Shown: one piece after another, positions 5,836 to 28,397 of the stretch | Position numbering within the stretch: position 1 is the stretch's first letter | Layout of the letters: each line of letters starts with the position of its first letter | Virus record (IMG/VR): IMGVR_UViG_3300042445_000416 | Location: 1-36,282 of that record | DNA length: 36,282 nucleotides | Reading direction: 5' to 3' (one strand) | Source: a virus | Notes under the pieces: model-generated | Database searches by the model: none | What the model was told of the DNA's origin: nothing | What the model saw: only the letters and a program-made list of their open reading frames with translations | Position numbers and translations under genes: made by a program

Positions 5836-6450
5836 ATGAAAGCAAAAGATTTCCTCCCCGAAGGCGTTATTAATATGTCTGCGTTAGCCGCCAAGGCTAA
5901 ACAACTTCTAGCATCTGGCATGACTGAACAGCAAGTAGTTCAGCAGTTAGTTAAAGAAGGCATCCCCAACCGATACGCACAACAAGCTGTTCAAGCTGGG
6001 CAAATGAACGAAGATAAGTTTGGCACTCGTGAAAAACGTGTACGTCGGGCCGGTAGCCGCCCTGAACGCAGTAACGGCGATAGAACTAAACAGATTCATC
6101 AATTACATGGAGCAACTGGATGGGACGTTAGCCATTTAGAATTGCTAAAACCTGGTGAGTTAGATGACTTACATAAAGAACACGTTAAAGAAATAGAAGA
6201 ACAATTCTGCGAAAACTGCGGTGGCAGTCTAGCAGAGAACGGTAAGGCATCACGTGCGTTGTGTGTTAGTGGTCGTCCTGATAATGATCTTGGCGCAAGT
6301 AATCTAGCAAGTTGTAAGAGTCAAGGGCTACGTGCCAGAGACGGTGAAAAATCACATAAGCTAGGTAAGACAGCAAAGAGTCGCATTAAAGTTGGCGGCC
6401 ATAGAATCAAAGGCCAGAAGTACGGCGGTCCATTACCGGATTGGAGTTAA
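5836..6450 (+). CDS. putative internal head protein with Cys cluster, 204 aa
   Basis: The N-terminus MKAKDFLPEG fits the capsid-targeting pattern described in the findings, with a T4 gp21-like cleavage site after LPE. The middle has an amphipathic helical segment; the C-terminal half has FCENCGG with two further Cys residues (ALC, ASC), which could bind metal, followed by a very basic stretch (KTAKSRIKVGGHRIKGQKYGG) suited to DNA. It ends GPLPDWS. I do not recognise a named family. It has a late promoter and is probably translated without a leader. Packaging with DNA is inference from the N-terminus and charge. Confidence 0.65.
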   Translation: MKAKDFLPEGVINMSALAAKAKQLLASGMTEQQVVQQLVKEGIPNRYAQQAVQAGQMNEDKFGTREKRVRRAGSRPERSNGDRTKQIHQLHGATGWDVSHLELLKPGELDDLHKEHVKEIEEQFCENCGGSLAENGKASRALCVSGRPDNDLGASNLASCKSQGLRARDGEKSHKLGKTAKSRIKVGGHRIKGQKYGGPLPDWS

Positions 6451-6451
6451 C

Positions 6452-7918
6452 ATGCGTTTTACTGAATTTAAAATATTACTAGAAGCAAAAGAAGCTCCTA
6501 TATACGTAGTTGGTGATAGTATTGCTGTTGGAATTAAAAACGCAAGTAACGCTGATGGTATTGCCGCTGGCGGAAAAAATCCTAAACAAGTATTAGATAT
6601 GATTAACGATCTAATCAACAGCAACGATCTTAAAGGTGCTATTGTTATCCTTAGTAGTGGAGCAAGTAACGCTACCTACGAACGTCCAAACGGTGAAAGA
6701 CAATCTTTCACAGTAGCAACAGTTGACGCACAACTAAAAGCTCTTAAGAGAGCAGGCGCACAAACATTCTTAGTTGGTACTGGTAGCAAGAAGTCTCAGA
6801 CATTTACCAATTCACTTGGTACATATTTTGTAAATTTTGAAAGAGAAAGAGTCAACGATCAATTGGCTGCGGCAGCTAACGCAAATGGTGCTAAATTCCT
6901 TGGACCGTTAGAAAATTTTGATCCAGGATTAAACAGCGGCAAGGGTGATGGTATACATCCATATGGCGGCTATCTTTCTATATACCAAGCAGCCACTCGA
7001 GGAGTAACAGCCGCTCCTACTAATGCCAAACCAGGAACTGCCAAGGGACAAGGCGGTAAGCCGGGCGTAGCTAAAGTGCCGTTAACTAGTATCACCGTGC
7101 CTACTATGGACAAAGGTCCGGATATTGCTGATATGCAAAAAGTACTAAAAGCATTAGGATACGGAGAGTTACTTGGCCCGTTCGGCGAAGGCGGAGTAGA
7201 CGGAGTAATTGGAAAATATACTCTTAATACCGTTAGAACATTCCAGAAAGATGCCGGCATTAAACCTATCACAGGCATGCCAGACGAAAAAACTATTGCC
7301 AAGTTAAATGAATTGCTAAACGGTAAGTTCAAAGGTAAGATTACTAAAAGTACTAGTGCCGATGTTAAGTTATCACACGCAAGCGCAGTTAAGAATGGCG
7401 GACTAGATGCTGCCGATATTAAAAAGTACGGTTCTATTCCGCAAACTAACATGACAATGAAGGCTAAGGCATCAGCAGAATCATATTTAGGCAGATCAAT
7501 GAGTGATGACGAGTGGGACTATTTATTGAGAGCTACTGGCGCAGAATCTGCCTTTAATGTTAAATCATATGCTATGGTCATGGGAAGTATTCTTAATCGT
7601 GCTAGAGACGCTGGTAAGAATGGTGTAATATCAGTGTTGATGGCTAGGAATCAATTCCAAGCAGTAACAGGCACTGCTGTTGACGGGCATAAGCCTAGTC
7701 CTCACTTTGTAAGAGGTCCTAACTCTGATCAGCTAAAAGCAATGAGTGTTGCCGCAGTAGAATATTTGCCAAGGGTGAGTAAAGATCAAAAGAATTTCAC
7801 AGCAACGGATCCAGCTGCCTACGGTCCGGGCACAAACATTGCCTATTTAGATCAACTGCGTAGCAAGAAAGGCGGCTCTGAAATTGCCGGATCCGCATTC
7901 AATACCACTTTAGTTTAA
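6452..7918 (+). CDS. three-domain cell-envelope hydrolase: SGNH + peptidoglycan-binding + SleB-like
   Basis: The 488-residue protein starts MRFTEFKILLEAKE, a capsid-targeting-like peptide with a LLE/A site. Next is an SGNH hydrolase domain: GDSIAVG at 21-27 with nucleophile Ser23, and the DGIHP block with Asp166 and His169. Residues about 222-290 form a PG_binding_1 domain (DIADMQKVLKALGY, then VDGVIGKYTLNTVRTFQ). The C-terminal part, from about 340, has EWDYLLRATGAESAF and SILNRAR followed by ISVLMARNQFQAV, as in the Hydrolase_2/SleB cell-wall hydrolase family. Together these suggest an enzyme that deacylates and cuts the envelope or peptidoglycan, maybe carried in the virion. The start at 6452 has a GGAG site six bases upstream. 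The first two domains are firm; the third is probable. Confidence 0.78.
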   Translation: MRFTEFKILLEAKEAPIYVVGDSIAVGIKNASNADGIAAGGKNPKQVLDMINDLINSNDLKGAIVILSSGASNATYERPNGERQSFTVATVDAQLKALKRAGAQTFLVGTGSKKSQTFTNSLGTYFVNFERERVNDQLAAAANANGAKFLGPLENFDPGLNSGKGDGIHPYGGYLSIYQAATRGVTAAPTNAKPGTAKGQGGKPGVAKVPLTSITVPTMDKGPDIADMQKVLKALGYGELLGPFGEGGVDGVIGKYTLNTVRTFQKDAGIKPITGMPDEKTIAKLNELLNGKFKGKITKSTSADVKLSHASAVKNGGLDAADIKKYGSIPQTNMTMKAKASAESYLGRSMSDDEWDYLLRATGAESAFNVKSYAMVMGSILNRARDAGKNGVISVLMARNQFQAVTGTAVDGHKPSPHFVRGPNSDQLKAMSVAAVEYLPRVSKDQKNFTATDPAAYGPGTNIAYLDQLRSKKGGSEIAGSAFNTTLV

Positions 7919-7928
7919 TTTGGACATT

Positions 7929-7936
7929 AGTAAATA
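7929..7936 (+). promoter_or_regulatory. late promoter octamer AGTAAATA, leaderless geometry
   Basis: Six bases separate the octamer from ATG 7943, placing the predicted +1 at 7942, one base before the start codon. Confidence 0.7.
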
Positions 7937-7942
7937 CCTCAT

Positions 7943-8491
7943 ATGAAAATTGTTGGAAATTTATTAATTGCGCCGCCTGTGGTCAAAGGCAACTTTTGGT
8001 ACAAGACTGTTATAATGATAACTGAACATCATAGCGATGGCAGTGTTGGACTTGTATTGAACAAACGTAGTCAAATGACTATTAAAGAGTTTGGAGAACA
8101 ACTAAACTACGATTTAGATCTTCCAGGATATGTATACTTAGGCGGACCAGTTAATGTTAAGAGTTTAAGTTTTTTACATACTAATGAATGGACTAGCAAA
8201 AACACCATGCGAGTAAATCAAGAGTTCTCAGTTAGCTCAGCAGATGATATTCTACCCAGACTAGCAATGGGCGACACTCCAAGAAAATGGCGCATATTTT
8301 TAGGTATGTGTGGATGGAGTGCTAGTCAATTAGATGGTGAGATATCAGGTAACCCACCGTGGAATAAAGAAACAAGTTGGTGTACAGCAAGTGCTGATCA
8401 TGACCTTGTTTTTGAGTCCGACAACAAGGATCAATGGTGCAACGCCTTAGATCGAAGCGGTTTAGAGTTCGCTCAAAGCATATTGACGTAA
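7943..8491 (+). CDS. YqgE/AlgH (UPF0301) family protein
   Basis: The 182-residue product follows the family throughout: GNLLIAPPVV at the N-terminus, then VIMITEHHSDGSVGLVLNKR, LGGPV, FLHTNEW, GMCGWSASQLDGEI and a C-terminal NKDQWCNALDRSGLEF. The length is the family norm. The biochemical function of YqgE/AlgH is unsettled; AlgH was named as an alginate regulator in Pseudomonas. No ribosome site is visible upstream and the late promoter predicts an mRNA beginning at the start codon. In a phage it might alter host gene control, but this is speculative. Confidence 0.88.
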   Translation: MKIVGNLLIAPPVVKGNFWYKTVIMITEHHSDGSVGLVLNKRSQMTIKEFGEQLNYDLDLPGYVYLGGPVNVKSLSFLHTNEWTSKNTMRVNQEFSVSSADDILPRLAMGDTPRKWRIFLGMCGWSASQLDGEISGNPPWNKETSWCTASADHDLVFESDNKDQWCNALDRSGLEFAQSILT

Positions 8492-8511
8492 ATACTGTTT
8501 GAGTATATAAT
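8483..8511 (+). promoter_or_regulatory. sigma70-type promoter TTGACG-N17-TATAAT
   Basis: TTGACG lies at 8483-8488 and TATAAT at 8506-8511, 17 bases apart. It overlaps the stop codon of the YqgE/AlgH gene and reads into the HNH and radical SAM genes. A late octamer is embedded in its spacer, so the unit could be expressed both early and late. Confidence 0.78.
8487..8494 (+). promoter_or_regulatory. late promoter octamer CGTAAATA
   Basis: The octamer is nested in the spacer of the sigma70-type promoter. Predicted +1 is near 8500, leaving a 62-nt leader with an AAGAGG ribosome site before ATG 8562. Confidence 0.5.
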
Positions 8512-8561
8512 TTGTACTTCACTGGTTGGGTCTGTAAACACAACAAGAAAGAGGTTTTAAA

Positions 8562-9074
8562 ATGGCAGATACCCTTGTCCTTAACGCAGACGGATTACCT
8601 GTGAGCGTATTACCGTTAAGCACAATCACATGGCAAGAATCAATCAAGTATATGGTCTTAGACAAGGCCAACGTACTGGCTTGGCACGACAGTTGGATTG
8701 TTCACTCAGCAAACTGGGAAACACCTGTACCGTCAGTTATCATATTGCGCGACTATATGAAAACAAAGACCACAGTGAGATTTAGTCGTGCTAATGTTCA
8801 TCTACGTGATGGCGGTAAATGTCAATACTGCGGTATATCAGTTAATGGTCGTGAATCAACACTTGATCACGTTATGCCTGTATCTAAAGGCGGCAAAACT
8901 ACATGGGAAAACTGTGTAACTGCCTGCGGCCCATGTAACAGCCACAAGAGCGATAAGCTGGGAGTTAAGCCAAAGATCAAGCCATACAAGCCAGACTACT
9001 ACGATTTGGTAAACAAGCGTAAGAAGTTTGAGTTCAATGTCCGCCACAAAGAGTGGCTACAGTTTATAATGTGA
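8562..9074 (+). CDS. HNH endonuclease
   Basis: In this 170-residue protein a zinc-ribbon HNH core is clear: CQYCG at about 91-95, LDHVMPVSKGGKTTWENCV, then CGPCNSHK. The His of LDH, the Asn of ENC and the last His form the H-N-H metal site. The N-terminal 85 residues (LVLNADGLPVSVLPLSTITWQ) resemble those of other stand-alone phage HNH proteins. It may act in packaging, recombination or host DNA attack; no inserted intron is apparent here. An AAGAGG site precedes the ATG, and the stop overlaps the radical SAM start. Confidence 0.88.
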   Translation: MADTLVLNADGLPVSVLPLSTITWQESIKYMVLDKANVLAWHDSWIVHSANWETPVPSVIILRDYMKTKTTVRFSRANVHLRDGGKCQYCGISVNGRESTLDHVMPVSKGGKTTWENCVTACGPCNSHKSDKLGVKPKIKPYKPDYYDLVNKRKKFEFNVRHKEWLQFIM

Positions 9075-9943
9075 AAAAGTTATCAGTCCAATGGCAAGCT
9101 GGTAACCAATGTAATTTTAGATGCGATTACTGTCATAGTGACTATCACGACGGCAGTAATCCATTTTTAGATTACGAACAATTCCATGTTGGATTTACTA
9201 ATTTAAAAAATAGTACCGTTGATTATGATCGTCTTGAGATTGAGTTTCAGGGCGGCGAGCCTACAATTAGCTCTGCTGTAAGAGACACTATTATCAGCTC
9301 AACTGACACAAGAATCAAATATGTATTAACTACTAACGCAAGTGCCAGTCTTGATTGGTGGCACCAGGCTGTAAAAAACTTATCAAAGGTTATGCTAGCC
9401 TATCACCCAAATAGCGATATTATACACTTTCATCAAGTAATTGAAATTGTAAAAGCTAGCGGAGTTCCTTTTGCTATTACAATCAACGCACACACTGATC
9501 CTAGTAGGTGGGACCAAGCGGTAGACTTATACGATCATTATAAAACACAATCGTTTCCTATCAACTTTAGAGCACTATTTTCTAATCATAATAAAGGAAA
9601 CGACAAGTTTTTGAACTACAACATTGATCAATGGAGTTATTGGTTAGAACTTAATAAAATAACAGCACCTGACGCCCCAGTCGAAACTCAAATCAAATGG
9701 GTTGAAGATAGGCTATATAATAACTACAAAGGACACTTATGCTGGGCAGGTGTTGAACAGATTGTAATTGACTACTTTGGTTATGTTTATAGAGGCTGGT
9801 GCTATTCAAACGGCGGGTTTGGAAACATATTCAAAGGACCAATCGTTTTAGACAAACAACCAACAGTGTGCCCAAAGATAGCTTGTAAAAATACTTTTGA
9901 TCAGTTGTCTAAAAAGAGTACTAACAGTTGGGGATTTTCATGA
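9071..9943 (+). CDS. radical SAM enzyme
   Basis: From the GTG at 9071 (GTGA overlap with the HNH stop) the product has 290 residues; a GTG at 9053 is an alternative. CNFRCDYC at 14-21 is the CxxxCxxC motif that binds the 4Fe-4S cluster, and EFQGGEP is the SAM-contacting motif. The C-terminal region has more cysteines (HLCWAG, GWCYS, VCPKIACKN) that could hold an auxiliary cluster, as in SPASM or twitch proteins that modify peptides. The reaction is unknown. Its partners are an HNH nuclease and a DUF454 membrane protein, with which it is translationally coupled. Confidence 0.85.
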   Translation: MKKLSVQWQAGNQCNFRCDYCHSDYHDGSNPFLDYEQFHVGFTNLKNSTVDYDRLEIEFQGGEPTISSAVRDTIISSTDTRIKYVLTTNASASLDWWHQAVKNLSKVMLAYHPNSDIIHFHQVIEIVKASGVPFAITINAHTDPSRWDQAVDLYDHYKTQSFPINFRALFSNHNKGNDKFLNYNIDQWSYWLELNKITAPDAPVETQIKWVEDRLYNNYKGHLCWAGVEQIVIDYFGYVYRGWCYSNGGFGNIFKGPIVLDKQPTVCPKIACKNTFDQLSKKSTNSWGFS

Positions 9944-10359
9944 AAAAGGTTTTTTGGAACATATTAGGATTTTTAAGTTTAGGCATGGCCTACATTGGAG
10001 TTATCACTCCGGGCATACCTTATAGTTGTTTCGTGGTATTTGCTGCCTATTGCTTTGCCAAGGGTAACGAACGTATGCATCGTTGGTTATACAATCACAA
10101 GTTGTTTGGACCGTTCTTAACCAACTGGGGTACCAAGCGTGTATTCCCACACAAGATGAAATATTTTATGCTGGTCACTATGAGTGTTAGTCTATTGATC
10201 ATGTTCTTTACAGGAGTGAAACCCATTGGCATATTGTCTACGGGCATCTTCATGGCGCTGGTAGCAGTATGGGCATGGCGCTTTCCAGGTAGCACAGACG
10301 AATACGATCGCCGTATTTCCGAAGGCCGCAAGATAGGTTGGTTCAACAATAGTTTTTAA
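9940..10359 (+). CDS. DUF454 (YbaN-like) inner-membrane protein
   Basis: This 139-residue protein has hydrophobic segments around residues 6-34 and 75-110. The N-terminal pattern ILGFLSLGMAYIGVITPGIP followed by FVVFAAYCFAKGNERMHRWL and HKLFGPFLTNW matches the DUF454 family (E. coli YbaN). The family has no known function. ATG 9940 overlaps the radical SAM stop by four bases, so the two may work together at the membrane. Confidence 0.8.
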   Translation: MKKVFWNILGFLSLGMAYIGVITPGIPYSCFVVFAAYCFAKGNERMHRWLYNHKLFGPFLTNWGTKRVFPHKMKYFMLVTMSVSLLIMFFTGVKPIGILSTGIFMALVAVWAWRFPGSTDEYDRRISEGRKIGWFNNSF

Positions 10360-10365
10360 TAAATA
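10358..10365 (+). promoter_or_regulatory. late promoter octamer AATAAATA
   Basis: Predicted +1 near 10371 gives a 16-nt leader containing CGGAG before ATG 10387. The octamer overlaps the stop codon of the DUF454 gene. Confidence 0.65.
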
Positions 10366-10386
10366 CTCTGTTAACACGGAGTACCC

Positions 10387-10827
10387 ATGAAACAACTATT
10401 AGCATTATTATTGTTAGTTCCAGCACTGGCAATAGCACAGGGAAAGATGCCCTCAAAATCGGCAACTTATGACGCACAGATTATTAGAGTGAGTGACGGC
10501 GATACTATTGTAATCGCCGCTCCCTTTTTACCAGCACCGCTCAAACCAGAGCTTGCTGTTAGAATCTACGGAGTCGACACGCCGGAAAAAGGACATAGAG
10601 CTCAATGCCCCCAAGAAAACGAGCGGGCACTCGTGGCGAGTAAATTTACAACCCAAGCCATACAATCCCACCCAAAGCACCAAGTTATTATCTATGGATG
10701 GGATAAGTTTGGTGGCCGTATACTGGGAGATATCTTGGTAAACGGACAAAGCATTCGTCAGGGACTTATCAGCAACGGTCTAGCACGTGAATACTACGGT
10801 GATGCTAAACAAAGCTGGTGTAATTGA
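10387..10827 (+). CDS. secreted thermonuclease (staphylococcal-nuclease fold)
   Basis: A signal peptide covers about residues 1-17 (MKQLLALLLLVPALAIA, likely cleaved before QG). The mature part is an SNase domain: VSDGDTIVI supplies calcium-binding Asp, VRIYGVDTPE supplies the catalytic Arg, Asp, Thr and Glu, and DKFGGRILGDILV carries the second Arg. It ends GDAKQSWC. The 146-residue length suits a periplasmic nuclease. It could destroy extracellular or incoming DNA (competitor exclusion) or recover nucleotides. It sits behind its own late promoter with a CGGAG ribosome site. Confidence 0.88.
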   Translation: MKQLLALLLLVPALAIAQGKMPSKSATYDAQIIRVSDGDTIVIAAPFLPAPLKPELAVRIYGVDTPEKGHRAQCPQENERALVASKFTTQAIQSHPKHQVIIYGWDKFGGRILGDILVNGQSIRQGLISNGLAREYYGDAKQSWCN

Positions 10828-10862
10828 TCTATTGCAAAAAGTAACAACGCTGACTAATTTTG

Positions 10863-10870
10863 TGTAAATA
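10863..10870 (+). promoter_or_regulatory. late promoter octamer TGTAAATA, nearly leaderless
   Basis: Eight bases lie between the octamer and ATG 10879; predicted +1 near 10876 leaves about three untranslated bases. Confidence 0.6.
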
Positions 10871-10878
10871 CAACTACT

Positions 10879-11766
10879 ATGAAACTTGAAAATTATCGTT
10901 TATTTGCTCAACTGTGTGAAGGACTAATAACAGAAGTTAGCTCTTCTCTTTCAATTGTCCAACAAAATCCAGGCGGCGATGCAGTTATAAAACAACTACA
11001 CACAAAATCTGGTTTAGGGCATGATCAGACTTATTCATTGGTTCCAAAGATATCCTGGTCAGATCTAAAAGACAGTTACAAAGGCGCCTGGGTTATTATC
11101 ATTGGATCATCTGGTACTGGTGCTATTAAAGCCACGGGCGGGAACACAGGCAACTATGAAGCAATAGCCAGCAACGGTGGTGAAGTTGCATCTGCTAACG
11201 ATTCTAGAGGCGGCAATATTCTTGATTTTCTTAAGAGTAACATTGGCACATTGAAACAATACTATGTAGGAAAAAATACTAGTAAAGTTGCTGACGTTAA
11301 ACGAACTCGTGCCGGCCAACAGGCAAACGTAGGCGGCAAGGCCATCACAACAGACACTCTAGTGAAAAAATTTAAACCATTATGGGCAAAAGCAATTAAT
11401 CAAGCAATACCTGATATTAAGGGTATGGCTATTACGATGATTAAAAATGATGCGTTTGAAAAAGCTGAAAAAAAGTTAGCATTAGCAAAAAGTTTAGAAT
11501 CTGCTGCCAATAGTATTGAAGCTGGTGAAGAGGATATTCCGAGTATAATAAAATCAGCAGTAGCAATGGCAGTTACAATGTCTGCTTCACATTATTATCC
11601 AGATAAGACTGGAGAAATTACTAGAGCTGGTAGATACGGAAGCAGTGGATCATCGCCAGCTAACTATGAAGGTACCACGCAACTATTAGCAGATATCACA
11701 GCAGGTGATACCCAAAAGTTAGGTACCATTTTAGCATTCTTTAAAAGGAATTTGATCTCAGGATGA
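10879..11766 (+). CDS. putative internal head protein, 295 aa
   Basis: The N-terminus, MKLENYRLFAQLCEGLITE, is of the capsid-targeting type with two candidate cleavage sites (LCE/G and ITE/V). The body is rich in Ala, Gly, Ser and Lys, with a segment SWSDLKDSYKGAWVIIIGSSGTGAI, then a helical Lys/Ala-rich stretch (KAEKKLALAKSLESAANSIE). No enzymatic motif is evident. It is the first of several genes linked by ATGA overlaps. A virion or internal role is inferred from the late promoter and N-terminus. Confidence 0.65.
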   Translation: MKLENYRLFAQLCEGLITEVSSSLSIVQQNPGGDAVIKQLHTKSGLGHDQTYSLVPKISWSDLKDSYKGAWVIIIGSSGTGAIKATGGNTGNYEAIASNGGEVASANDSRGGNILDFLKSNIGTLKQYYVGKNTSKVADVKRTRAGQQANVGGKAITTDTLVKKFKPLWAKAINQAIPDIKGMAITMIKNDAFEKAEKKLALAKSLESAANSIEAGEEDIPSIIKSAVAMAVTMSASHYYPDKTGEITRAGRYGSSGSSPANYEGTTQLLADITAGDTQKLGTILAFFKRNLISG

Positions 11767-12896
11767 ACATAATAGAATTAATTATTGAAGCCAATGTTGC
11801 TTCAAAGATCAAAGACCCTGGCAGAATTAAACAAATTGCAATTGCCATGCGCCACGACGGAACACTGCCTAAAGCGGCAGTTGCTAAGTTAGGTCCACGC
11901 CCAACAGAACAATCTACGCTTGAGCTATGGAGTCAAATACTTGACAGCTCACTGAGTAATACTCAGTACGGCAACATTAGTCAAGATGGTAAGTTTGATG
12001 ATTGGCTTACTCGATTGTATCAAAATGGTCAAGCAGACTACGAAGACATTAATGGTGAAGGTGGCGACGCACTTGGCGCTTGGAAAGCTCTAAGCATTCG
12101 CGGCAAACTTAAACCAGCACATCAAGACTTTAATAAATTTAAAAATCTACGTCAAATTCAAAACATTGTTCAAAGTCGTGAATATAGAGATGAACTGCGT
12201 AGAATGAAAGACGCCGAAGTGATTGAGAAACATAAACGAGATCGCAAAGAAATTGTTATTCTTGATGACGAACGTTTTCTAGCAGTGGTTCCTATGAACT
12301 ATGGATCGTGCTATACATTCAACAACTCACACGGATTTCAGGCCAGTTTCTGTACAGGTTCTAGTTCAGGTGCTTCTTGGTTTAATCGTTACGCAGATGA
12401 CGGTCCTATTGTTAGTATCTTTGACAAACAAAATCCAGATGATGTTAACGGCAAGTGGCAAATGCATGCGCCAACTCGTCAATTAAACAACGGCAACCAG
12501 CAGACTCGCGGCGATAAAGAATTTGCCGAACGATTTCCTGGGCTGATGATTAATATTGTAGCAGGCTTAGAACAAAACGCAGAAGAAATCAATGCCAACA
12601 GCGCACACATTGTTAAAGGTGGGTACGATATGGCTAAAGCTGTTAGCGATATTAAGAAAGAATTTCCAGCAAGTATGACTCCTCCAGAGCCAGAAAAACT
12701 GCCAGAGCCAGAGGCCGCCCAAAATAACAACGGCGCCGGTGTGTATCTTGTAACACAAACTGCTACAGGTAGGACTGCTAACATTACTGCTGATAGTTTA
12801 GAACACGCTCAACAGCAACTACAACAGCGCCATCCTAATATTAATATTGAAGACTTTACTTTTGAATTACAAGCAGAAAATAATGGACAACAATAA
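11763..12896 (+). CDS. putative internal head protein with FCTGSSSG motif, 377 aa
   Basis: MNIIELIIEANVASK at the N-terminus fits the capsid-targeting pattern with an IIE/A cleavage site. Residues about 175-260 carry SCYTFNNSHGFQASFCTGSS, SWFNRYADDGPIVSIFDK and GKWQMHAPTRQ. This resembles, from memory, a widespread uncharacterised phage domain with a WCTA-type motif followed by a GPLY and a Q-x-H strand. A Pro/Glu linker (PPEPEKLPEPEAAQ) leads to a small C-terminal domain of about 45 residues (VYLVTQTATGRTANITADS). The activity is unknown. ATGA overlap joins it to the preceding gene. Confidence 0.65.
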   Translation: MNIIELIIEANVASKIKDPGRIKQIAIAMRHDGTLPKAAVAKLGPRPTEQSTLELWSQILDSSLSNTQYGNISQDGKFDDWLTRLYQNGQADYEDINGEGGDALGAWKALSIRGKLKPAHQDFNKFKNLRQIQNIVQSREYRDELRRMKDAEVIEKHKRDRKEIVILDDERFLAVVPMNYGSCYTFNNSHGFQASFCTGSSSGASWFNRYADDGPIVSIFDKQNPDDVNGKWQMHAPTRQLNNGNQQTRGDKEFAERFPGLMINIVAGLEQNAEEINANSAHIVKGGYDMAKAVSDIKKEFPASMTPPEPEKLPEPEAAQNNNGAGVYLVTQTATGRTANITADSLEHAQQQLQQRHPNINIEDFTFELQAENNGQQ

Positions 12897-12963: not shown

Positions 12964-13045
12964 AGAATTATATAAAGGCATGGCGTTATATGGCTGTGGC
13001 CTTGCCGGTGTACCTCTTACAGTTGATGAGGTTAAAGAGCTATGA
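12929..13045 (+). CDS. small hypothetical protein, 38 aa (GTG start)
   Basis: From GTG 12929 the frame encodes 38 residues, VTVKETLIALFKELYKGMAL at the start, amphipathic and protein-like, and its stop overlaps ATG 13042 by four bases (ATGA), the usual operon junction here. A GAGGA site lies upstream at 12915-12919. It is a better candidate than the overlapping 26-codon frame. Confidence 0.5.
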   Translation: MTVKETLIALFKELYKGMALYGCGLAGVPLTVDEVKEL

Positions 13046-13581
13046 AAGCAAAAGAATTTATTAACGAAGACTGGAACAAAGTCAATAAGAAAGATAAAAC
13101 AGACGGACTTAGTCAAAAAGCTGTCAATGCGTATCGTAGAGAAAATCCAGGCAGCAAGTTAAAGACCGCAGTTACTACTAAGCCTAGTAAATTAAAAGCA
13201 GGTAGCAAGGATGCCAAACGCCGTAAGAGTTTTTGTGCTCGTATGAGTGGCAACAAAGGTCCAATGAAGAAACCCAATGGCAAACCTACACCTAAAGCAC
13301 TAGCCTTACGTAGATGGAACTGTGAAAGTGTAGAAGAAATGGTAGACATGATCATAGAGAATATGGATCATGCCAAAGACAATCAAGCTGTTCCAGAACT
13401 CAAAGCCGCATTACTAGCTAAGAAGACAACCTTACAGAATGCCAGCGAAGATCAAGTATACGATATTATTGATAAGATGATGACACGTATTGCTAAGTCG
13501 CATGGTATGAGCGGACAAAAGTTACATGACATGTGGGTTAAAGAATACGATCAGATTCCAGACACTTGGATAATGAAATGA
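13042..13581 (+). CDS. DUF6321-like basic protein with capsid-targeting-like N-terminus
   Basis: The 179-residue protein starts MKAKEFINED, with an INE/D cleavage-like site. Residues about 20-92 contain LSQKAVNAYRRENPGSKL, KAGSKDAKRRKSFCARMSG and KPNGKPTPKALALRRWNC, which I recall as the DUF6321 domain found in phages and bacteria. It is strongly basic and might bind nucleic acid. The C-terminal half is helical (YDIIDKMMTRIAKSHGMSGQ). No function is established. Linked on both sides by ATGA overlaps. Confidence 0.72.
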   Translation: MKAKEFINEDWNKVNKKDKTDGLSQKAVNAYRRENPGSKLKTAVTTKPSKLKAGSKDAKRRKSFCARMSGNKGPMKKPNGKPTPKALALRRWNCESVEEMVDMIIENMDHAKDNQAVPELKAALLAKKTTLQNASEDQVYDIIDKMMTRIAKSHGMSGQKLHDMWVKEYDQIPDTWIMK

Positions 13582-14240
13582 AAGCAAGTGAATTCATAAC
13601 TGAAAAGAAGAAAGGTAAAAATTCTAAAGTACGGAGAGCCGCGTACGGCCCAGGCCCGTTTGGTGGTTATGGGTATGCCAGTGGATACAGTGGTGATAGC
13701 GGCATAGGTGGTGACGGTGGTGGTGAAAGTATAAATCCCAACGCAAAGCTAGGCAATGTGTTACAGTGGCCAGAAGTTGTTAACAAAGTTAACAGCGCAA
13801 TGAAGGCCACCGGATGGAAAGGCAAACGCATGAGCGATGACGCATTTATGTTTACTACTAGAGGAGCAGAAGTTGAGGATCAGTGGTATATTGCTATTAT
13901 TGATAATGCCGGAGATGGATTCTTTAGATATGCGTTAGGTACCGTAGAAGAAGGTGATCCACATATCGATGATGCGTTTAAAGGTAAACTACCTAATACA
14001 GAAGCTAGTGTAAGCGAACTAATGAACGAGATTCGTGATGGTTTTGGATTGAATGAAAGTGTAGAGGAAAACTTTGCTGATGGCCGTAATCCACAAGACA
14101 AAGGTGATGCTAACCGTCATGGCGTTAACACCAAAGCGTCAGTAAGTAGTTTACGTAAAACTGCCAAGCAAGGTGGCCGCAAAGGACAACTAGCCCATTG
14201 GATGGCTAACATGAAAGCAGGAAAGGCAAAAAAGAAATGA
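13578..14240 (+). CDS. putative internal head protein with Gly/Tyr-rich segment, 220 aa
   Basis: Start at ATG 13578 in an ATGA overlap; the frame is open to 13566. The N-terminus MKASEFITEKKKGK has an ITE/K cleavage-like site followed by a Lys-rich patch. A low-complexity Gly/Tyr/Ser segment covers about residues 25-55. The middle part (VLQWPEVVNKVNSAMKATGW to YALGTVEEGDPH) looks like a small folded domain. The C-terminus is basic (KTAKQGGRKGQLAHWM then MKAGKAKKK). No family recognised; packaging with DNA is plausible from charge and N-terminus. Confidence 0.65.
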   Translation: MKASEFITEKKKGKNSKVRRAAYGPGPFGGYGYASGYSGDSGIGGDGGGESINPNAKLGNVLQWPEVVNKVNSAMKATGWKGKRMSDDAFMFTTRGAEVEDQWYIAIIDNAGDGFFRYALGTVEEGDPHIDDAFKGKLPNTEASVSELMNEIRDGFGLNESVEENFADGRNPQDKGDANRHGVNTKASVSSLRKTAKQGGRKGQLAHWMANMKAGKAKKK

Positions 14241-20031: not shown

Positions 20032-20039
20032 TATAAATA
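20032..20039 (+). promoter_or_regulatory. late promoter, perfect TATAAATA, leaderless geometry
   Basis: This is an exact match to the T4 late consensus. Five bases separate it from ATG 20045, so the predicted +1 is the A of the start codon. Confidence 0.78.
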
Positions 20040-20044: not shown

Positions 20045-20455
20045 ATGAAAGTAACCGAGATATTAACAGAAGGCATGGGCAAGCAAGACACATATCCAAT
20101 CTTATTGGACTTCATTCGCTTCGCCGCCAAGGACTTAGAGCTAGACAACTTGCCTAAGTTTGATTTTGTATTTGACAGCAAGGGTTCTATGGAACGTAAG
20201 AGCTTTGGTGGATACATGCCAGGCGAAGAACATATTACTATTACTGTAAAGAATCGCCACATTATGGATGTATGTCGTACCTTAGCACATGAGCTTGTTC
20301 ACTACAGTCAAGATTTAAAGAACGATCTAGAAGATGACGATGCTGGCACAACAGGTAGCCCACAAGAAAACGAAGCTAATGCCCGGGCGGCAGTAATCAT
20401 GCGTAATTTTGGACGAGCATTTCCAGACATGTTTGGCAAAGAAAGTATCGAATGA
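20045..20455 (+). CDS. zincin-like metallopeptidase with capsid-targeting-like N-terminus
   Basis: The 136-residue protein starts MKVTEILTEGMGK, with an LTE/G cleavage-like site. LAHELVHYSQD holds the zinc motif HExxH (His82, Glu83, His86), and Glu residues in PQENEANARAA, about 22-24 residues on, could be the third zinc ligand, as in gluzincins and SprT- or IrrE-like small peptidases. It may be a head-packaged protease, or a peptidoglycan- or host-protein-cutting enzyme. The mRNA is predicted to start at the ATG. It is coupled by ATGA to the SpeD-like gene. Confidence 0.75.
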   Translation: MKVTEILTEGMGKQDTYPILLDFIRFAAKDLELDNLPKFDFVFDSKGSMERKSFGGYMPGEEHITITVKNRHIMDVCRTLAHELVHYSQDLKNDLEDDDAGTTGSPQENEANARAAVIMRNFGRAFPDMFGKESIE

Positions 20456-23657: not shown

Positions 23658-23909
23658 ATGCGTAAAAGTACTAGAAGCATCTTACAAGAGTTAAATGACA
23701 TTGGCTTGAGCCGCGACACGGATCTAGTCATTGAAAGCCGCGGATCCAACATAATCCAAAGTGCCATTAACTTATTATCAATGATTCGTGAAAACTACGA
23801 TGTTGAAACTGCCGCTGAACTAGAGCGCCGCTTTATCAACAGCATCAAAGCCGCAGACAGCACCAAGTTTAAACGTGGTATTAAGCGGATCCAAGAGTCA
23901 AAAGAGTAA
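23658..23909 (+). CDS. small putative internal protein, 83 aa
   Basis: ATG 23658 is preferred to an in-frame TTG at 23643. The product begins MRKSTRSILQELND, with an LQE/L site of the gp21 type in a basic N-terminus, and is helical and charged after that (ENYDVETAAELERRFINSIK). No family is recognised. Late promoter upstream, candidate terminator downstream, so it is a single-gene unit. Confidence 0.6.
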   Translation: MRKSTRSILQELNDIGLSRDTDLVIESRGSNIIQSAINLLSMIRENYDVETAAELERRFINSIKAADSTKFKRGIKRIQESKE

Positions 23910-23928
23910 GAAACAAAGTTCTAAAAAT

Positions 23929-23950
23929 TAGCTATATTGGGCTATTTTTT
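23929..23950 (+). terminator. weak Rho-independent terminator
   Basis: TAGC and GCTA form a short stem around TATATTGG, followed by six T. Flanking A and T runs can lengthen the stem past one mismatch. It separates the 83-aa gene from the next late unit. Confidence 0.4.
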
Positions 23951-23959
23951 ATTCACAAT

Positions 23960-23967
23960 ACTAAATA
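23960..23967 (+). promoter_or_regulatory. late promoter octamer ACTAAATA
   Basis: Predicted +1 near 23973, giving a 53-nt leader with a 5' hairpin and a strong GAGGAGATT site before ATG 24026. Confidence 0.65.
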
Positions 23968-23978
23968 CATATACAAAG

Positions 23979-23993
23979 CTCACAGAGTGTGAG
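23979..23993 (+). promoter_or_regulatory. leader stem-loop CTCAC-AGAGT-GTGAG
   Basis: A 5-bp stem six bases from the predicted +1. The same CTCAC/GTGAG arms occur in the fibre gene leader at 21004-21057. Confidence 0.4.
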
Positions 23994-24025
23994 TATTTGA
24001 TTAAGCATATTCAGAGGAGATTATT

Positions 24026-24376
24026 ATGCCATCATTAACAAGTACAACAGTTGCGGCCAACTATAACCAGCCAAAAACAAACAACGGTCTAGGTCCAAGA
24101 ACATTGATCATCAAGATTGCCAAGACAGATATTACAACAGCTGAATTACACACAATTATCACATCTATCACCCAAGGTGGTACAGCTGGTGCTAACGATG
24201 CGTTTGTAGTTGCTGGTGTTGCTACAGCCGCTGGTACAGCTTTTGTAAGCGGAACAACAGACGTATTGTTCATTGCCCTACAAGGTACTGGTGTATTCAC
24301 AGCTGATGCTTCAGACGCTTATGGCGTAACTGGTGCGGCTTCAACTCTTGAATCAGTATTCGTTAACCCGTTCTAA
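24026..24376 (+). CDS. small abundant virion protein candidate, 116 aa
   Basis: The 116-residue protein is rich in Ala, Thr and Gly and low in charge: MPSLTSTTVAANYNQPKTNN, then FVVAGVATAAGTAFVSGTTD, typical of small beta-rich head decoration or tail proteins. It has the strongest translation signal of the area, its own late promoter with structured leader, and an excellent terminator, a monocistronic design used for highly expressed structural proteins. No family name can be given. Confidence 0.68.
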   Translation: MPSLTSTTVAANYNQPKTNNGLGPRTLIIKIAKTDITTAELHTIITSITQGGTAGANDAFVVAGVATAAGTAFVSGTTDVLFIALQGTGVFTADASDAYGVTGAASTLESVFVNPF

Positions 24377-24422
24377 TCATTAGAATAGTTAATTAGTTTT
24401 TATTCTCAGGGATGGGAAGACT

Positions 24423-24449
24423 AAGCCTACTTTCATAGTAGGCTTTTTT
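24423..24449 (+). terminator. strong Rho-independent terminator
   Basis: AAGCCTACT and AGTAGGCTT are a perfect 9-bp stem around TTCAT, followed by a T run. It ends the 116-aa gene unit. Confidence 0.9.
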
Positions 24450-24455
24450 ACGACT

Positions 24456-24463
24456 GTTAAATA
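24456..24463 (+). promoter_or_regulatory. late promoter octamer TGTTAAATA type, leaderless geometry
   Basis: Five bases separate the octamer GTTAAATA from ATG 24469, so predicted +1 is the A of the start codon. It follows the strong terminator by seven bases. Confidence 0.7.
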
Positions 24464-24468
24464 CTACC

Positions 24469-24870
24469 ATGGAATACACACTTTACACAACCGTTGACAT
24501 AACACATACAGGACAATACCGACCTGAGCCTGGTAAAGAAGCTGATCGTTGGAAAGAACAAAATTTTCAAACTCTAATACAAACTATCGGACTTAGAACA
24601 AATATAACTTTTCGACGACCTCCTGACATGATTCAAGTTGGTGGTAAGCAGATTGGATTTGCTACGGATGCTCTTGTCAGAGCGTGGCGATTTGATTTTG
24701 GTACTGAACATGAAGGATTCTTTGAAACTGATAATAGTCCAGTAGGCACCTTGATTGAAGACTTTGATGGCGTTCCGTATATTGCCGGACTAGCCGAAAG
24801 CATGACACAAAACTTTGACGTGTTTGTCACTGAAGGACCTGCCCAAAATATTGTTTTCTTTAAAAAGTAA
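24469..24870 (+). CDS. conserved phage hypothetical protein, 133 aa
   Basis: The product starts MEYTLYTTVDITHTGQYRPE and has NFQTLIQTIGLRTNITFRRP and WRFDFGTEHEGFF. The phrase TTVDITHTGQYR and the QTIGLR segment are, from memory, typical of a protein conserved in marine T4-like phages with no assigned function. Late expression suggests a virion or assembly role. No ribosome site is visible; the mRNA is predicted to start at the ATG. Confidence 0.7.
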   Translation: MEYTLYTTVDITHTGQYRPEPGKEADRWKEQNFQTLIQTIGLRTNITFRRPPDMIQVGGKQIGFATDALVRAWRFDFGTEHEGFFETDNSPVGTLIEDFDGVPYIAGLAESMTQNFDVFVTEGPAQNIVFFKK

Positions 24871-24876
24871 TAAATA
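24869..24876 (+). promoter_or_regulatory. late promoter octamer AATAAATA
   Basis: Predicted +1 near 24882 gives a 100-nt leader before ATG 24982, the longest late leader in the window, with a hairpin near its end. Confidence 0.55.
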
Positions 24877-24937
24877 CTATCAGTGTAATCACTACGCTAC
24901 TAAGGCACATAGGCATTCAATCATATACTAGGCACAT

Positions 24938-24952
24938 GACTCGGAGCGAGTC
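24938..24952 (+). promoter_or_regulatory. leader hairpin GACTCG-GAG-CGAGTC
   Basis: A perfect 6-bp GC-containing stem with a three-base loop lies 30 nt before ATG 24982. The TTGGAGAG ribosome site is outside it. It has no T run, so it is not a terminator. Confidence 0.4.
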
Positions 24953-24981
24953 CCTGACTTACAACATTGGAGAGCCCTAGA

Positions 24982-25329
24982 ATGGCCACGAAAGAAGCAA
25001 TAGCACAGTTAGCTATGTTACCAGAGCGTGTAGCAATAGTTGAAACAAAAGTAGACCAAATAGAAGAAAAACTTGACGAGCTCAAAGTAGGCGTCAAAGA
25101 AATGCATGACTGTCTAGACAATACTCGTGATCTACTAGCAGAACAATTGAAGATAATGTCAGTGGCATCTGAAGCACAACACAATGATTTGTACGAAAAA
25201 ATCAATGCGTTGGAAAAAGTCAAAAGCAAATATACAATGTATGCCATGGTTGGCCTAGCGTTTGCAGCTGGCGCTGGTTGGCTAAACTCCGTACATTTTC
25301 CACATCTTTTAAAATTCTTTGGAATGTAA
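24982..25329 (+). CDS. coiled-coil protein with C-terminal membrane segment, 115 aa
   Basis: ATG 24982 is preceded by TTGGAGAG; a TTG at 24967 is less likely. Residues about 15-80 have coiled-coil heptads (VAIVETKVDQIEEKLDELKV), and residues 85-103 are one membrane segment (YTMYAMVGLAFAAGAGW). This layout is like XhlA-type holin-associated proteins and some inner-membrane spanin or lysis proteins. It could help lysis, or anchor a virion part. No lysis partners are visible beside it. Confidence 0.65.
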   Translation: MATKEAIAQLAMLPERVAIVETKVDQIEEKLDELKVGVKEMHDCLDNTRDLLAEQLKIMSVASEAQHNDLYEKINALEKVKSKYTMYAMVGLAFAAGAGWLNSVHFPHLLKFFGM

Positions 25330-25333
25330 ATCT

Positions 25334-25341
25334 GTTAAATA
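25334..25341 (+). promoter_or_regulatory. late promoter octamer GTTAAATA, leaderless geometry
   Basis: Six bases lie between the octamer and ATG 25348; predicted +1 is 25347. Confidence 0.65.
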
Positions 25342-25347
25342 TGTGCT

Positions 25348-26055
25348 ATGCAGATAATAGAATTCGAAGAATCAATCAACCCAGTCGAATACCACGACAC
25401 GCTCAATCCCAAACTCTGGGATAAAAATTCCCTAAACACCGAAGTACGCTATAAGCTCATGGCCATTGCCATGCACTTTGCCAAGTTCCTTAATGTACCT
25501 AAGTTGAACTTGAGAGACATTACTATTAGTGGAAGCAATGCGGCCTACGGATACGCTGAAAGTAGCGATTTAGATCTACATCTTGTAGTAACAATGCCAA
25601 AGGATCGTCCTGAACTGGCGGAACTGTATACTGCTAAGAAAAACGAATATAACTTCACACACAACATCACAGTCAAGGGTATTGATGTAGAACTCTATGT
25701 ACAGGATGTACAACAACCGCATCGTTCTGCTGGAATTTACAGCATCCTCAACGATCGATGGATCAGCAAGCCTAAACATCAACCTCCCACAATTAGAGAT
25801 CAAGATGTTAAAAGTAAAGCCCGTAACTACTCGGCTAGAATTAACGCGGCAATGAGGGCAAATGACTTAAATACAGCAAGAGAAACAATGTCTGACATAC
25901 GCAAGTTGCGTCAAGCAGGGCTAGAGCAAGGTGGCGAGTATTCTGTGGAAAACTTGGCATTTAAGCTACTACGTGCTAGAGGTAAAATTGATAAGTTTAG
26001 ACGTTTTATAAACAAATTACAAAGTGCTGAACTAAGCCTCGGGGAACAACAATGA
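25348..26055 (+). CDS. Pol beta-type nucleotidyltransferase, possibly packaged
   Basis: The 235-residue protein has ISGSNAAYGYAESSDLDLHLVV: Gly-Ser at 62-63 and the catalytic Asp74 and Asp76, with a third acid, Glu115, in GIDVELYVQD. This is a complete minimal nucleotidyltransferase core. The C-terminal 90 residues are helical and basic (NAAMRANDLNTARETMSDIR). The N-terminus, MQIIEFEESI, resembles the capsid-targeting peptides nearby, though without a clean cleavage site. Enzymes of this type add nucleotides to RNA, proteins or antibiotics; the target is unknown. Confidence 0.8.
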   Translation: MQIIEFEESINPVEYHDTLNPKLWDKNSLNTEVRYKLMAIAMHFAKFLNVPKLNLRDITISGSNAAYGYAESSDLDLHLVVTMPKDRPELAELYTAKKNEYNFTHNITVKGIDVELYVQDVQQPHRSAGIYSILNDRWISKPKHQPPTIRDQDVKSKARNYSARINAAMRANDLNTARETMSDIRKLRQAGLEQGGEYSVENLAFKLLRARGKIDKFRRFINKLQSAELSLGEQQ

Positions 26056-26747
26056 AAGTTAATCAAATCGTAAGTGAACATAAGAAAGGTGTACGAGCAA
26101 TGAAGTACACTACCAAGACCAAGGGTACTGTGCCAGTTTACGGTCCTGACAGCAAAGATGCTAAACTCAAGCCAGTTAAACCAACAGGCACAAACGAAGC
26201 TATTGAAGTCAAACCAATGCCTGGTGCTTCACAAGTTGTGTCAGACGGCAAACCAATTGCTACTACTGATGCAGCGACTGCCCAAGCAATTGCTAAGGCC
26301 GCAGGTGAAGGAAACTTTAATCCAACAGACGGAACTGAAAAGCCTGCGCTTGAAACAAACAGCGATGTTGGCCCAGTTGGCGGAGATCCTACTGACGAAT
26401 ATATCCAAGACATAACTGCCGATGAAGGCATGTTTGATGTTCCTACAAATCCGCAAATTGAAGCATTAAAAGCTATGCTTGCTGATCCTAAATATGCGTC
26501 AAACCCAATGGCCAAATCACAACTAGAAAAGCGTTTAAAGATTGCTCAAGATAGAGCAAGTCTTGATCAAGGACAAGCAATGGGTGCTGGCGGTTCTCCA
26601 AAGCCTGTGCTAGACCCTGATGCTTTCTCAAAAGCTAACCCTAACTTTAAAGAGACACAGAGTGCGGTATACCCAAGTCGCAACAAAGTTCAAGAAGCCG
26701 ACGATGTGCTGTTAGGCAAAATGTTATCCATTGCTGGGTTAAGATGA
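26052..26747 (+). CDS. putative internal or scaffold-like protein, 231 aa
   Basis: ATGA overlap with the nucleotidyltransferase gene. The N-terminus MKVNQIVSEHKKGVRAMK has a VSE/H site followed by basic residues. Much of the chain is Pro/Ala/Lys/Asp-rich and probably disordered (YGPDSKDAKLKPVKPTG), with a helical part near residues 135-175 (IEALKAMLADPKYA). Nothing enzymatic is seen. Disorder plus the N-terminus suggests a head-internal or scaffolding role. Confidence 0.6.
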   Translation: MKVNQIVSEHKKGVRAMKYTTKTKGTVPVYGPDSKDAKLKPVKPTGTNEAIEVKPMPGASQVVSDGKPIATTDAATAQAIAKAAGEGNFNPTDGTEKPALETNSDVGPVGGDPTDEYIQDITADEGMFDVPTNPQIEALKAMLADPKYASNPMAKSQLEKRLKIAQDRASLDQGQAMGAGGSPKPVLDPDAFSKANPNFKETQSAVYPSRNKVQEADDVLLGKMLSIAGLR

Positions 26748-26953
26748 AAATCAACGAACTGATTAGTAGTTTTGAAATATGGACCACTAACGAAGAAGCA
26801 AAATTACTGGAGAGATTGAAATCTCCAGTAAAGCTATCGTCTCTTAGCGAGCAGGATCAATTCAAAGTACAGGCCATGATCCGTAAGAGTTTGATAACTA
26901 AAGTTGGACATGAAGATCCTACTATAGTTGCAAATGAAAAAAAGAAAATTTAA
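26744..26953 (+). CDS. small hypothetical protein, 69 aa
   Basis: ATGA overlap with the previous gene. MKINELISSFEIWTTNEEAK starts like the other targeting-type N-termini but has no [L/I]xE site in the usual place. The rest is helical: LSSLSEQDQFKVQAMIRKSL. I associate it with small conserved proteins of marine T4-like phages, without known function. Confidence 0.62.
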   Translation: MKINELISSFEIWTTNEEAKLLERLKSPVKLSSLSEQDQFKVQAMIRKSLITKVGHEDPTIVANEKKKI

Positions 26954-27383
26954 ACAAAAAGAAATCAAAGAGCTAGCTGAGTCCTTTAAAGAGGACTTTA
27001 AGGCTACGCTTCCTATTACCGTGCTATCCAACGGGTCAATAGTATACAAACAATATCTAATCAAAGAAACTGATAAGAAAAACTGGGGAATCTATCATCT
27101 TGAAGGTCAAACACTTATAGATGAGTATTTTCTTAAAACTTGTGCTCTTATGGCTGCGAAAGCGTATAATAGTACAGACATGATCAAGTTCTTTAGTATC
27201 AAGCGAATAGACAGAAAATACTGGAATAGCTACTGCGATACATTAGTCTACAAGAAAAACATCAAAATAGCTAAGGACTTTGACAGATACCTAATTTTGT
27301 TAAATAAATTAGAACACAGCTCGGCAATAGCCATACATTCCAAGGACGAAATTTCTAAAATGTTTAAATGGTCTTTTGTATAA
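26934..27383 (+). CDS. hypothetical protein, 149 aa
   Basis: ATG 26934 overlaps the preceding gene by 20 nt; a TTG six bases earlier is an alternative. The N-terminus is very basic (MKKRKFKQKEIKELAESF). The middle has SNGSIVYKQYLIKETDKKNW and a helix with LKTCALMAAKAYN. No family is recognised. The stop is followed closely by a late promoter. Confidence 0.62.
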   Translation: MKKRKFKQKEIKELAESFKEDFKATLPITVLSNGSIVYKQYLIKETDKKNWGIYHLEGQTLIDEYFLKTCALMAAKAYNSTDMIKFFSIKRIDRKYWNSYCDTLVYKKNIKIAKDFDRYLILLNKLEHSSAIAIHSKDEISKMFKWSFV

Positions 27384-27386
27384 ATA
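27379..27386 (+). promoter_or_regulatory. late promoter, perfect TATAAATA
   Basis: An exact T4 late consensus overlapping the previous stop. Predicted +1 near 27392; the 22-nt leader has TAGGAAAG before ATG 27414. Confidence 0.78.
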
Positions 27387-27413
27387 ACATAATAAGACTT
27401 CTAGGAAAGAATC

Positions 27414-28397
27414 ATGCACATTAGAGAATTTTCAAAACCTGTAACAAGTAAACACCTCAACGAGAGCCTAGCTAAGACATTTGGCTACAAGATCAACTTA
27501 GAGCAATTTACAGATGTACAACTCGAAGATGCCCGTAACAAGTTGAGAACAAAAATCAGTCAGTTTGAACTTTCTGAAAGTTTTGATTCTATGTTAGAAA
27601 GCCCAGAGTATCAAAAGACACGTATGTTCTTAGACACGATCAACCAAGAGTTGATAGAGCGTGAAGAAAGCAAATGTGATGATTGTGACAAAGCACATAC
27701 TGGTGATTGCGATGAAGAAGATATGTCCGACAAAGAAGAAGATGAAGATATGAAAGATAAAACAGACGAGAGCTATGTAACGCAAACAGTACGCAGTCGC
27801 GCACAAAAGTTGTCAGTTCCAGAAAGCTGGATCAACAGCACACTTGCTAAGATTAGAGTAGGCGAAGATGATCGCGAAGAACTTAAGGCAGAACTACAAA
27901 CACGTTATGATTTAAATGAATCACAGGCAAGTTGGTTATTGCTAGAAGGCGAAGAAGACAAAGCTGAAATCATTATGGCAACTAAAGATATGGTAGATCG
28001 TATCACAGGCTGGCTAGAAGATGTGGCTGCGATGAAAGCAGAACAATTACTAGAATTAATGGACTCTATAAGAGAACAACAAGGAAGTGATGTTGCCCAG
28101 CAATATCAAGATGCGGTCAAACCTGCATTAGAGGCAATTTACACAGCGTTAGAAACATCAAGAACCGGTCTATCATCAGGCCTAGCAGTTGTATCAGGCG
28201 GCGAAGCTCCTACAATGGGTGGCGGTGCTCCTACAATGGGTGGCGGTGCTCCTATGGGCGGCGCAACTCCTCCAGCAGGCGGCGAAGCAGAAATGGGCTT
28301 AGAAGAGCCAGTAGGCGGTGAAGCAGGTCGTGAGCAACGTGAAAGCGTTAATTACAGCCGTCGCTTAGGCATGTTACTTAACTCAAAAAAAAAGTAA
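27414..28397 (+). CDS. acidic helical virion/head-assembly protein candidate, 327 aa
   Basis: The N-terminus MHIREFSKPVTSKHLNES contains an LNE/S cleavage-like site. Residues about 88-120 are extremely acidic with four Cys (CDDCDKAHTGDCDEEDMSDK). A helical stretch follows (MVDRITGWLEDVAAMKAEQL), then Gly/Ala/Met/Pro repeats near 263-290 (APTMGGGAPTMGGG). Acidic, helical, late-expressed proteins of this kind act as head core or scaffold, and the ITGWLED segment recalls a conserved marine myovirus protein whose role I cannot name. The gene ends in a run of nine A. Confidence 0.68.
   Translation: MHIREFSKPVTSKHLNESLAKTFGYKINLEQFTDVQLEDARNKLRTKISQFELSESFDSMLESPEYQKTRMFLDTINQELIEREESKCDDCDKAHTGDCDEEDMSDKEEDEDMKDKTDESYVTQTVRSRAQKLSVPESWINSTLAKIRVGEDDREELKAELQTRYDLNESQASWLLLEGEEDKAEIIMATKDMVDRITGWLEDVAAMKAEQLLELMDSIREQQGSDVAQQYQDAVKPALEAIYTALETSRTGLSSGLAVVSGGEAPTMGGGAPTMGGGAPMGGATPPAGGEAEMGLEEPVGGEAGREQRESVNYSRRLGMLLNSKKK
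28206..28247 (+). repeat. tandem 21-nt repeat inside a coding region
   Basis: Two perfect copies of GCTCCTACAATGGGTGGCGG plus T, with a third partial copy beginning at 28248, encode APTMGGG repeats. In-frame units like this gain and lose copies by slippage. Confidence 0.85.

Follow-up and report, generated by a model that had tools for sequence, protein, structure and literature searches.

Candidate T4-type capsid targeting sequences on a modular set of proteins in a freshwater jumbo bacteriophage

Tagged genes in the window

The DNA analyzed here, called the window throughout, is a 36,282-base viral fragment of a giant freshwater bacteriophage (IMG/VR record IMGVR_UViG_3300042445_000416), and our subject is a short N-terminal tag carried by several of its proteins, which are named below by the start positions of their genes. 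In phage T4, a 10-residue capsid targeting sequence (CTS) is enough for packaging, and the protease gp21 cuts after L/I-x-E (PMC9026906). A sequence-only reading of the window had proposed such starts for about a dozen proteins. All twelve N-termini that it quoted were present as ATG starts (5836, 6452, 10879, 11763, 13042, 13578, 20045, 23658, 25348, 26052, 26744, and 27414). A T4-type CTS, in the order hydrophobic, acidic, F/L/I, I/L, any residue, Glu, starts at least six of the proteins (5836, 6452, 11763, 13042, 13578, and 20045), and 26052 and 27414 probably carry it in variant form (Table 1). That all twelve bear the signal was not supported: five have it strictly and others as variants, but 23658, 25348, and 26744 have family-conserved starts without a full core, and 10879 has LITE only at residues 16-19. 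The 25348 family keeps an MxxxEF/EL start with no LxE at residue 9; in 23658 the LxE is conserved, yet this start is probably not equivalent to the tags.

The bodies behind these starts were then compared with known families. Proteins 5836, 11763, 13578, and 26052 had no family in Pfam or PHROGs, and 10879 had one weak sub-cut-off match only. Protein 6452, previously read as an SGNH/SleB hydrolase, carried the GDS and DxxH motifs of an SGNH-like domain, a PG_binding_1 domain, and a C-terminal domain. Its PG_binding_1 match was clear, but the GDSL lipase match fell below the cut-off, SleB was not found, a phmmer search against PDB sequences returned nothing significant, and the AlphaFold model made without an alignment was uninformative (predicted local distance difference test score, 36). 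The zincin call for 20045, which has HELVH at 20288-20302, and the nucleotidyltransferase call for 25348, a Pol-beta-like protein whose homolog in Synechococcus phage DSL-LC03 is so annotated, held up better. Protein 13578 consists of a basic stretch, a Gly/Tyr-rich linker, and, as its last 56 residues, an unannotated basic module, here named NFADG.

Table 1. Tags, tag-like starts, and associated features in the window and, where a contig is named, in its relatives (a slash marks the predicted cleavage position or module boundary; aa, amino acids)
Feature	Position	Strand	Details
Strict tag MKAKDFLPE/G	5836..5862	+	204-aa protein, gene 5836-6450, isoelectric point 9.5
Tag-like start MRFTEFKILLE/AK	6452..6484	+	488-aa protein, gene 6452-7918
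Long tag candidate MKLENYRLFAQLCEGLITE/V	10879..10935	+	295-aa orphan, gene 10879-11766; weak pattern match
Strict tag MNIIELIIE/AN	11763..11789	+	377-aa orphan, gene 11763-12896
Strict tag MKAKEFINE/D	13042..13068	+	DUF6321 module directly after; gene 13042-13581
DUF6321 module	13069..13317	+	Pfam PF19846, E 8e-18
Strict tag MKASEFITE/KKK	13578..13604	+	220-aa protein, gene 13578-14240
SVEE/NFADG junction and C-terminal NFADG module	14058..14237	+	Module 14070-14237
TATAAATA, T4-late-promoter-like	20032..20039	+	Just upstream of gene 20045
Strict tag MKVTEILTE/G	20045..20071	+	136-aa HExxH zincin-like protein, gene 20045-20455
83-aa protein MRKSTRSILQE/L	23658..23909	+	Ortholog of PA5oct gp259, annotated virion structural protein
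Nucleotidyltransferase-like protein	25348..26055	+	GSNAAYGYAESSDLDLHL at 25531-25584
MKVNQIVSE/H	26052..26078	+	Gene 26052-26747; MKxxQIV[SG]E in most of the family
69-aa protein	26744..26953	+	M[KR][IV]xEL or close variant in 10/10 family members; residue 9 mostly not Glu
MHIREFSKPVTSKHLNE/S	27414..27464	+	[LI]NE conserved in close relatives; gene 27414-28397
Long linker proteins	G010 125748-129251, 154172-156148; G022 131570-133687, 134412-136367		Most with tag-like starts

Megablast of the central 22.5 kb of the window against 50,697 phage records gave no match. Judged from its ribonucleotide reductase, exonuclease, and 23658 protein, which showed affinity with PA5oct, RaK2, CBB, and XbC2, the window belongs to a jumbo myovirus of the T4 superfamily. 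Viral metagenome contigs G001-G014 and G022-G028 were fetched and searched as relatives. In a further contig, G052 (356 kb), NrdB was 87% identical to that of the window, and the 27414 ortholog was 68% identical over its full length. Xanthomonas phage X1, which gave the best NrdA hit, was considered as an isolate and rejected; its annotated nrd neighbourhood looked different.

Tag signal in the window, its relatives, and control phages

The claim that nine of the quoted proteins hold [L/I]xE within their first 20 residues was borne out. However, this bare motif could not carry the case alone, because it occurred in 19 of the 58 window genes, only a two- to threefold excess over what shuffles (10.7) and internal positions (6.8) gave, and it was dropped as weak evidence. 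A stricter core was taken from IPII, IPIII, gp24, and Alt of T4, all of which have E-[FL]-[ILF]-x-E close to the N-terminus, and was slightly widened to [ED][FLI][FLIV]xE starting at residue 4-7. This core occurred in five window genes (5836, 11763, 13042, 13578, and 20045), against 0.10-0.13 expected, and 5000 shuffles never gave more than two matches. An anchored pattern, M[KR]xx[ED][FLIVM], matched eight window genes against 0.3 expected, two of which (1584 and 2076) are probably chance matches. Thus, a tag of about 10 residues with a core ending in Glu occurs in the window in five strict copies and at least one variant, far above chance.

The window and the related contigs were then clustered into 1159 protein families. 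The strict core was found in 16 family representatives (1.5 expected) and the anchored form in 39 (4 expected). At least one strict match occurred in 24 families, and since the families were built without detected similarity to each other, the tag is attached to unrelated bodies. Among the tagged or tag-like proteins of the relatives, matches to amidoligase, lysozyme, and LysM models passed the cut-off, and those to HAD phosphatase, metallopeptidase, and GNAT models all stayed below it. In T4, the positive control, the strict core recovered IPII, IPIII, gp24, Alt, and gp61.1, whereas it was at chance in phiKZ, SPO1, lambda, N4, and Mu, in which no gp21 was detected. Phosso, which has the protease, showed only weak anchored enrichment.

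Shared N-termini of this kind could reflect ordinary start-of-gene composition or chance. Bare [LI]xE is indeed common near N-termini, and a few anchored matches, such as those at 2076 and 1584, look accidental, but composition-preserving shuffles reached only about one-tenth of the number of families observed, and the five gp21-negative phages stayed near chance. Furthermore, the pattern was kept in orthologs though the residues changed: close orthologs with near-identical bodies varied inside the tag (MKAKEFINE/DWNKVNKKDK and MKISELLNE/DWNKVNKKDK), and the zincin-like family of 20045 started with MKVTEILTEG, MKIKELLTES, MKVKELLMEG, or MKVRDVLTEG. Chance or composition is largely refuted by these data and deserves next to no credence.

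The tag rule also points to T4 gp61.1, an uncharacterised 54-aa protein (gene 61.1, NC_000866 18966-19130, adjoining 61.2, also named adfA). It starts with MKTFKEFIKEDM, which matches the T4 tag core in full, and is a candidate head-packaged protein.

Prohead protease, virion proteins, and late-promoter-like elements

The S77 prohead protease family of gp21 (PF03420) was detected well above cut-off in contigs G022, G023, G025, G027, G028, G032, G033, G052, G054, G055, and G069; every one of the five tested contigs of at least 340 kb carried it. Among isolates, T4, PA5oct, CBB, XbC2, and Phosso were positive, and phiKZ, SPO1, lambda, N4, and Mu were negative. The head module of the larger relatives follows the T4 order of portal, 77-aa protein, acidic scaffold, protease, scaffold, and capsid, with names assigned by homology to PA5oct and by position.

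PA5oct (NC_071039) also provided virion data. Its stretch from helicase to nrdA, syntenic to window 23658-29547, encodes about a dozen proteins labelled as detected by electrospray ionization tandem mass spectrometry (ESI-MS/MS), and the part that corresponds to 23658-28762 is rich in them. Profile searches connected 27414 (E 8e-23, ortholog of gp247), 24469, and 29547 with MS-positive PA5oct proteins, and 23658 with an annotated virion structural protein. In a motif count covering all but the last 14 kb of PA5oct, the anchored pattern occurred in 7 of 91 MS-positive proteins versus 3 of 329 others (p = 0.0012), and some MS-positive proteins start with MKIKDILVES or MKINDIITEG. PA5oct is, however, distant in sequence, and no ortholog of the candidate cargo at 5836-14240 was detected in it.

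ATAAATA/TAAATAC elements resembling T4 late promoters were strongly enriched upstream of genes (ATAAATA, 58 versus 1.8 expected). They lay at or ahead of 40 of 84 tagged genes versus 481 of 1972 others (p = 5e-6), an approximate, sequence-only comparison on script-called genes. It approaches the second condition that the sequence-only reading had named as evidence against itself, a motif just as frequent in early genes.

We consider it likely that T4-type head targeting and gp21 processing have here been expanded to a modular cargo. The tagged proteins would be made late in infection, and the tag would dock each of them onto the core of the prohead. A gp21-type S77 protease of the phage would then cut after the Glu and free the body inside the head, where it would be packed alongside the DNA, to be carried into the next host cell. 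The bodies, namely zincin-like and SGNH/peptidoglycan-binding proteins, basic DUF6321 and NFADG modules, and orphans, would constitute this cargo. Packaging, cleavage, injection, and a host-directed function of the tagged proteins are thus what we infer.

Alternatively, the tagged proteins could be core or scaffold components of the head that are cut in the prohead and then mostly degraded or retained, rather than injected effectors. The 77-aa gene after the portal in the relatives and its MS-positive PA5oct counterpart (MKINDIITEG) do occupy the place of T4 gp67, and 27414 is acidic, present in most relatives, and MS-positive in PA5oct. Many tagged bodies, however, are phage-specific orphans, enzyme-like, or exchangeable modules, unlike an essential scaffold, and close relatives differ in cargo content. 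We regard this alternative as rather unlikely, though it deserves some weight.

Module junctions, known systems, and neighbouring genes

The boundaries of the two basic modules bear indirectly on cleavage. DUF6321 was traced in 80 viral loci, which gave 57 distinct copies, and the residue before the module was Glu in 35 of these (background 9%), with a hydrophobic residue two places earlier (P3) in 31 of the 35. This boundary occurred behind short tags (MRAYEFINE/DW and MKVHEIVSE/SAAW) and also at the end of long proteins (..ELYE/TAAW and ..QGVAE/DW); the 22 copies lacking the Glu were mostly short proteins with no recognisable tag. NFADG, found by pattern in 193 viral stretches, was preceded by Glu in 39/39 distinct copies (background 7%) and had a hydrophobic P3 in 29 (background 20%). 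Some proteins consist of a tag and this module only (MRIHELLSE/NFADGR, MRISELLE/NFADGR, and MRVTEIIAE/NFADGR). Given that the NFADG Glu is invariant and could be the module's own, DUF6321 offers the cleaner test. Co-occurrence of Glu-junction DUF6321 with PF03420 (2/12 contigs versus 0/8) was too sparse to count, and the DUF6321-like end in cyanophage T4-GC_110 (S-MbCM6), also considered, came without an N-terminal tag.

These boundaries also concern the idea that the tag docks the proteins to another virion part, such as the tail, baseplate, or portal vertex, with the Glu left uncleaved. Several families (26744 and 25348) keep MKxxEL/EF without Glu at residue 9, and in T4 an Asp at position 10 blocks processing while still allowing targeting (PMC9026906). 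Docking alone, however, gives no explanation for hydrophobic-x-Glu at internal module boundaries, and we hold this idea to be improbable.

Cleavage sites may also lie inside longer chains. Four long proteins of two relatives (Table 1) each hold four [V/M]AEG linkers, usually QG[VM]AEG, whose DNA shows synonymous differences. The linkers separate segments, the placement expected of cleavage sites. Across the lineage, [V/M]AEG occurred 41 times versus 13.6 in shuffles, and it was near chance in control phages. In one G010 protein of 1345 aa, nucleotidyltransferase, metallopeptidase-like, and amidoligase segments are joined in one chain. The four long linker proteins are possible cargo polyproteins. 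Tentatively, and with somewhat less than even confidence, we propose that one tag imports a chain of modules, that the repeated hydrophobic-A-E-G linkers (QG[V/M]AEG, at least four per protein) are cut in the head by the prohead protease, and that modules, including the basic NFADG and DUF6321 ends, shuffle freely between single tagged proteins and polyproteins.

Several observations weigh against head targeting with gp21 cleavage. The anchored pattern was picked with the window candidates already in view, and the strict core is a widened form of the T4 one; since both were settled on only once the window was known, the relatives and controls, and not the window count, are the test. Genes in the relatives were called by a simple script, contigs G014 and G023 showed little or no tag enrichment, and CBB virion proteins at the syntenic block carry few such tags. 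In PA5oct, neither the strict core alone (2/91 versus 1/329, p = 0.12) nor bare [LI]xE (p = 0.19) was significantly enriched. Some junction Glu residues, notably the NFADG one, may belong to the module itself. Finally, the 36-kb window holds no head gene or protease: PF03420 searches were negative in it and in 21 relatives because these contigs lack the head module, and phmmer with T4 gp21-24 against the first relative contigs returned nothing. The sequence-only reading had named a genome without prohead protease as evidence against itself; the window fragment has none, but its lineage does, including the relative G052.

On the other side are a non-random shared signal with enrichment of the T4 core, a protease in the lineage, MS-detected PA5oct orthologs and synteny for part of the block, anchored enrichment among MS-positive proteins, and hydrophobic-x-Glu boundaries before two cargo modules. 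These points support head targeting with gp21 cleavage, and the sequence-only interpretation as a whole is supported in part. Very probably, the window encodes a set of proteins that, as in T4, are targeted to the prohead and processed by gp21.

Among the closest known systems are the T4 internal proteins IPI-III and Alt with their CTS, which are processed by gp21 (PMC9026906, PMC12373910). They and the window set both have a short N-terminal tag with the core E-[FL]-[ILF]-x-E on unrelated proteins, a gp21-type protease (in the window's case, in its lineage), and several basic bodies. In contrast to T4, the core in the window begins one residue earlier, there are more cargo families per genome, the group includes enzyme-like bodies and shared C-terminal modules, its relatives have long tagged proteins with repeated Glu linkers, and its packaging and injection are predicted. 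Polyvalent proteins of phages and plasmids (Iyer et al. 2017, PMC5512222), for which processing by zincins has been proposed, share zincin, Pol-beta nucleotidyltransferase, GNAT, and peptidoglycan-acting domains with this group, and the 1345-aa G010 protein resembles them in its combination of segments. In the window, however, each of these domains sits in a separate protein that has a start of its own and one or two recognisable domains rather than several effectors; long multi-segment proteins occur in the relatives G010 and G022, with a T4-type tag and Glu linkers. In the jumbo phages phiKZ and SPN3US, many head proteins, including ejected ones with propeptides, are cut by a diverged gp21 relative (PMC5694885), but several propeptides exceed 100 residues, and phiKZ was negative for PF03420 with the short tag at chance.

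Internal proteins of T4 are known to inhibit restriction enzymes of the host, and to our knowledge few phages beyond the T-evens have a readable packaging code. In the open-access literature, studies of T4 and SPN3US were found, but none that surveyed these tags across the jumbo phages considered here. The mechanism is known from T4; new are its scale and content in a jumbo group, the basic modules that recur at protein ends, and a possible role of internal sites. Should the pattern hold, sequence would suffice to list the head cargo of a group that is common in freshwater metagenomes, and this would expose many first-contact effectors, the uncharacterised DUF6321 and NFADG modules, and possibly a polyprotein cargo format.

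Further genes of the window were recorded beside the tagged set. A phage-encoded 5-aminolevulinate synthase, the enzyme for the first step of heme synthesis, lies at 17811-19016 on the minus strand (TIGR01821, 567 bits; cut-off 339), and a gene of equal length with a near-identical start lies at 63752-64957 of contig G005. This 85.9-kb contig (L011-L015) carries the same region in two diverged copies of opposite orientation and may be an assembly chimera that joins two related phages. At 9071-9943 there is a radical SAM protein whose top NCBIfam match, the viperin model, scored 43 of 180 bits, well below cut-off. An ADP-heptose pathway cassette, with all matches below equivalog cut-offs, occupies 15306-17842 and 5008-5826 and comprises a GmhB-like phosphatase, HldE adenylyltransferase and kinase as separate genes, and two HldD-like epimerases, which suggests that the phage alters the lipopolysaccharide core sugars of its host.

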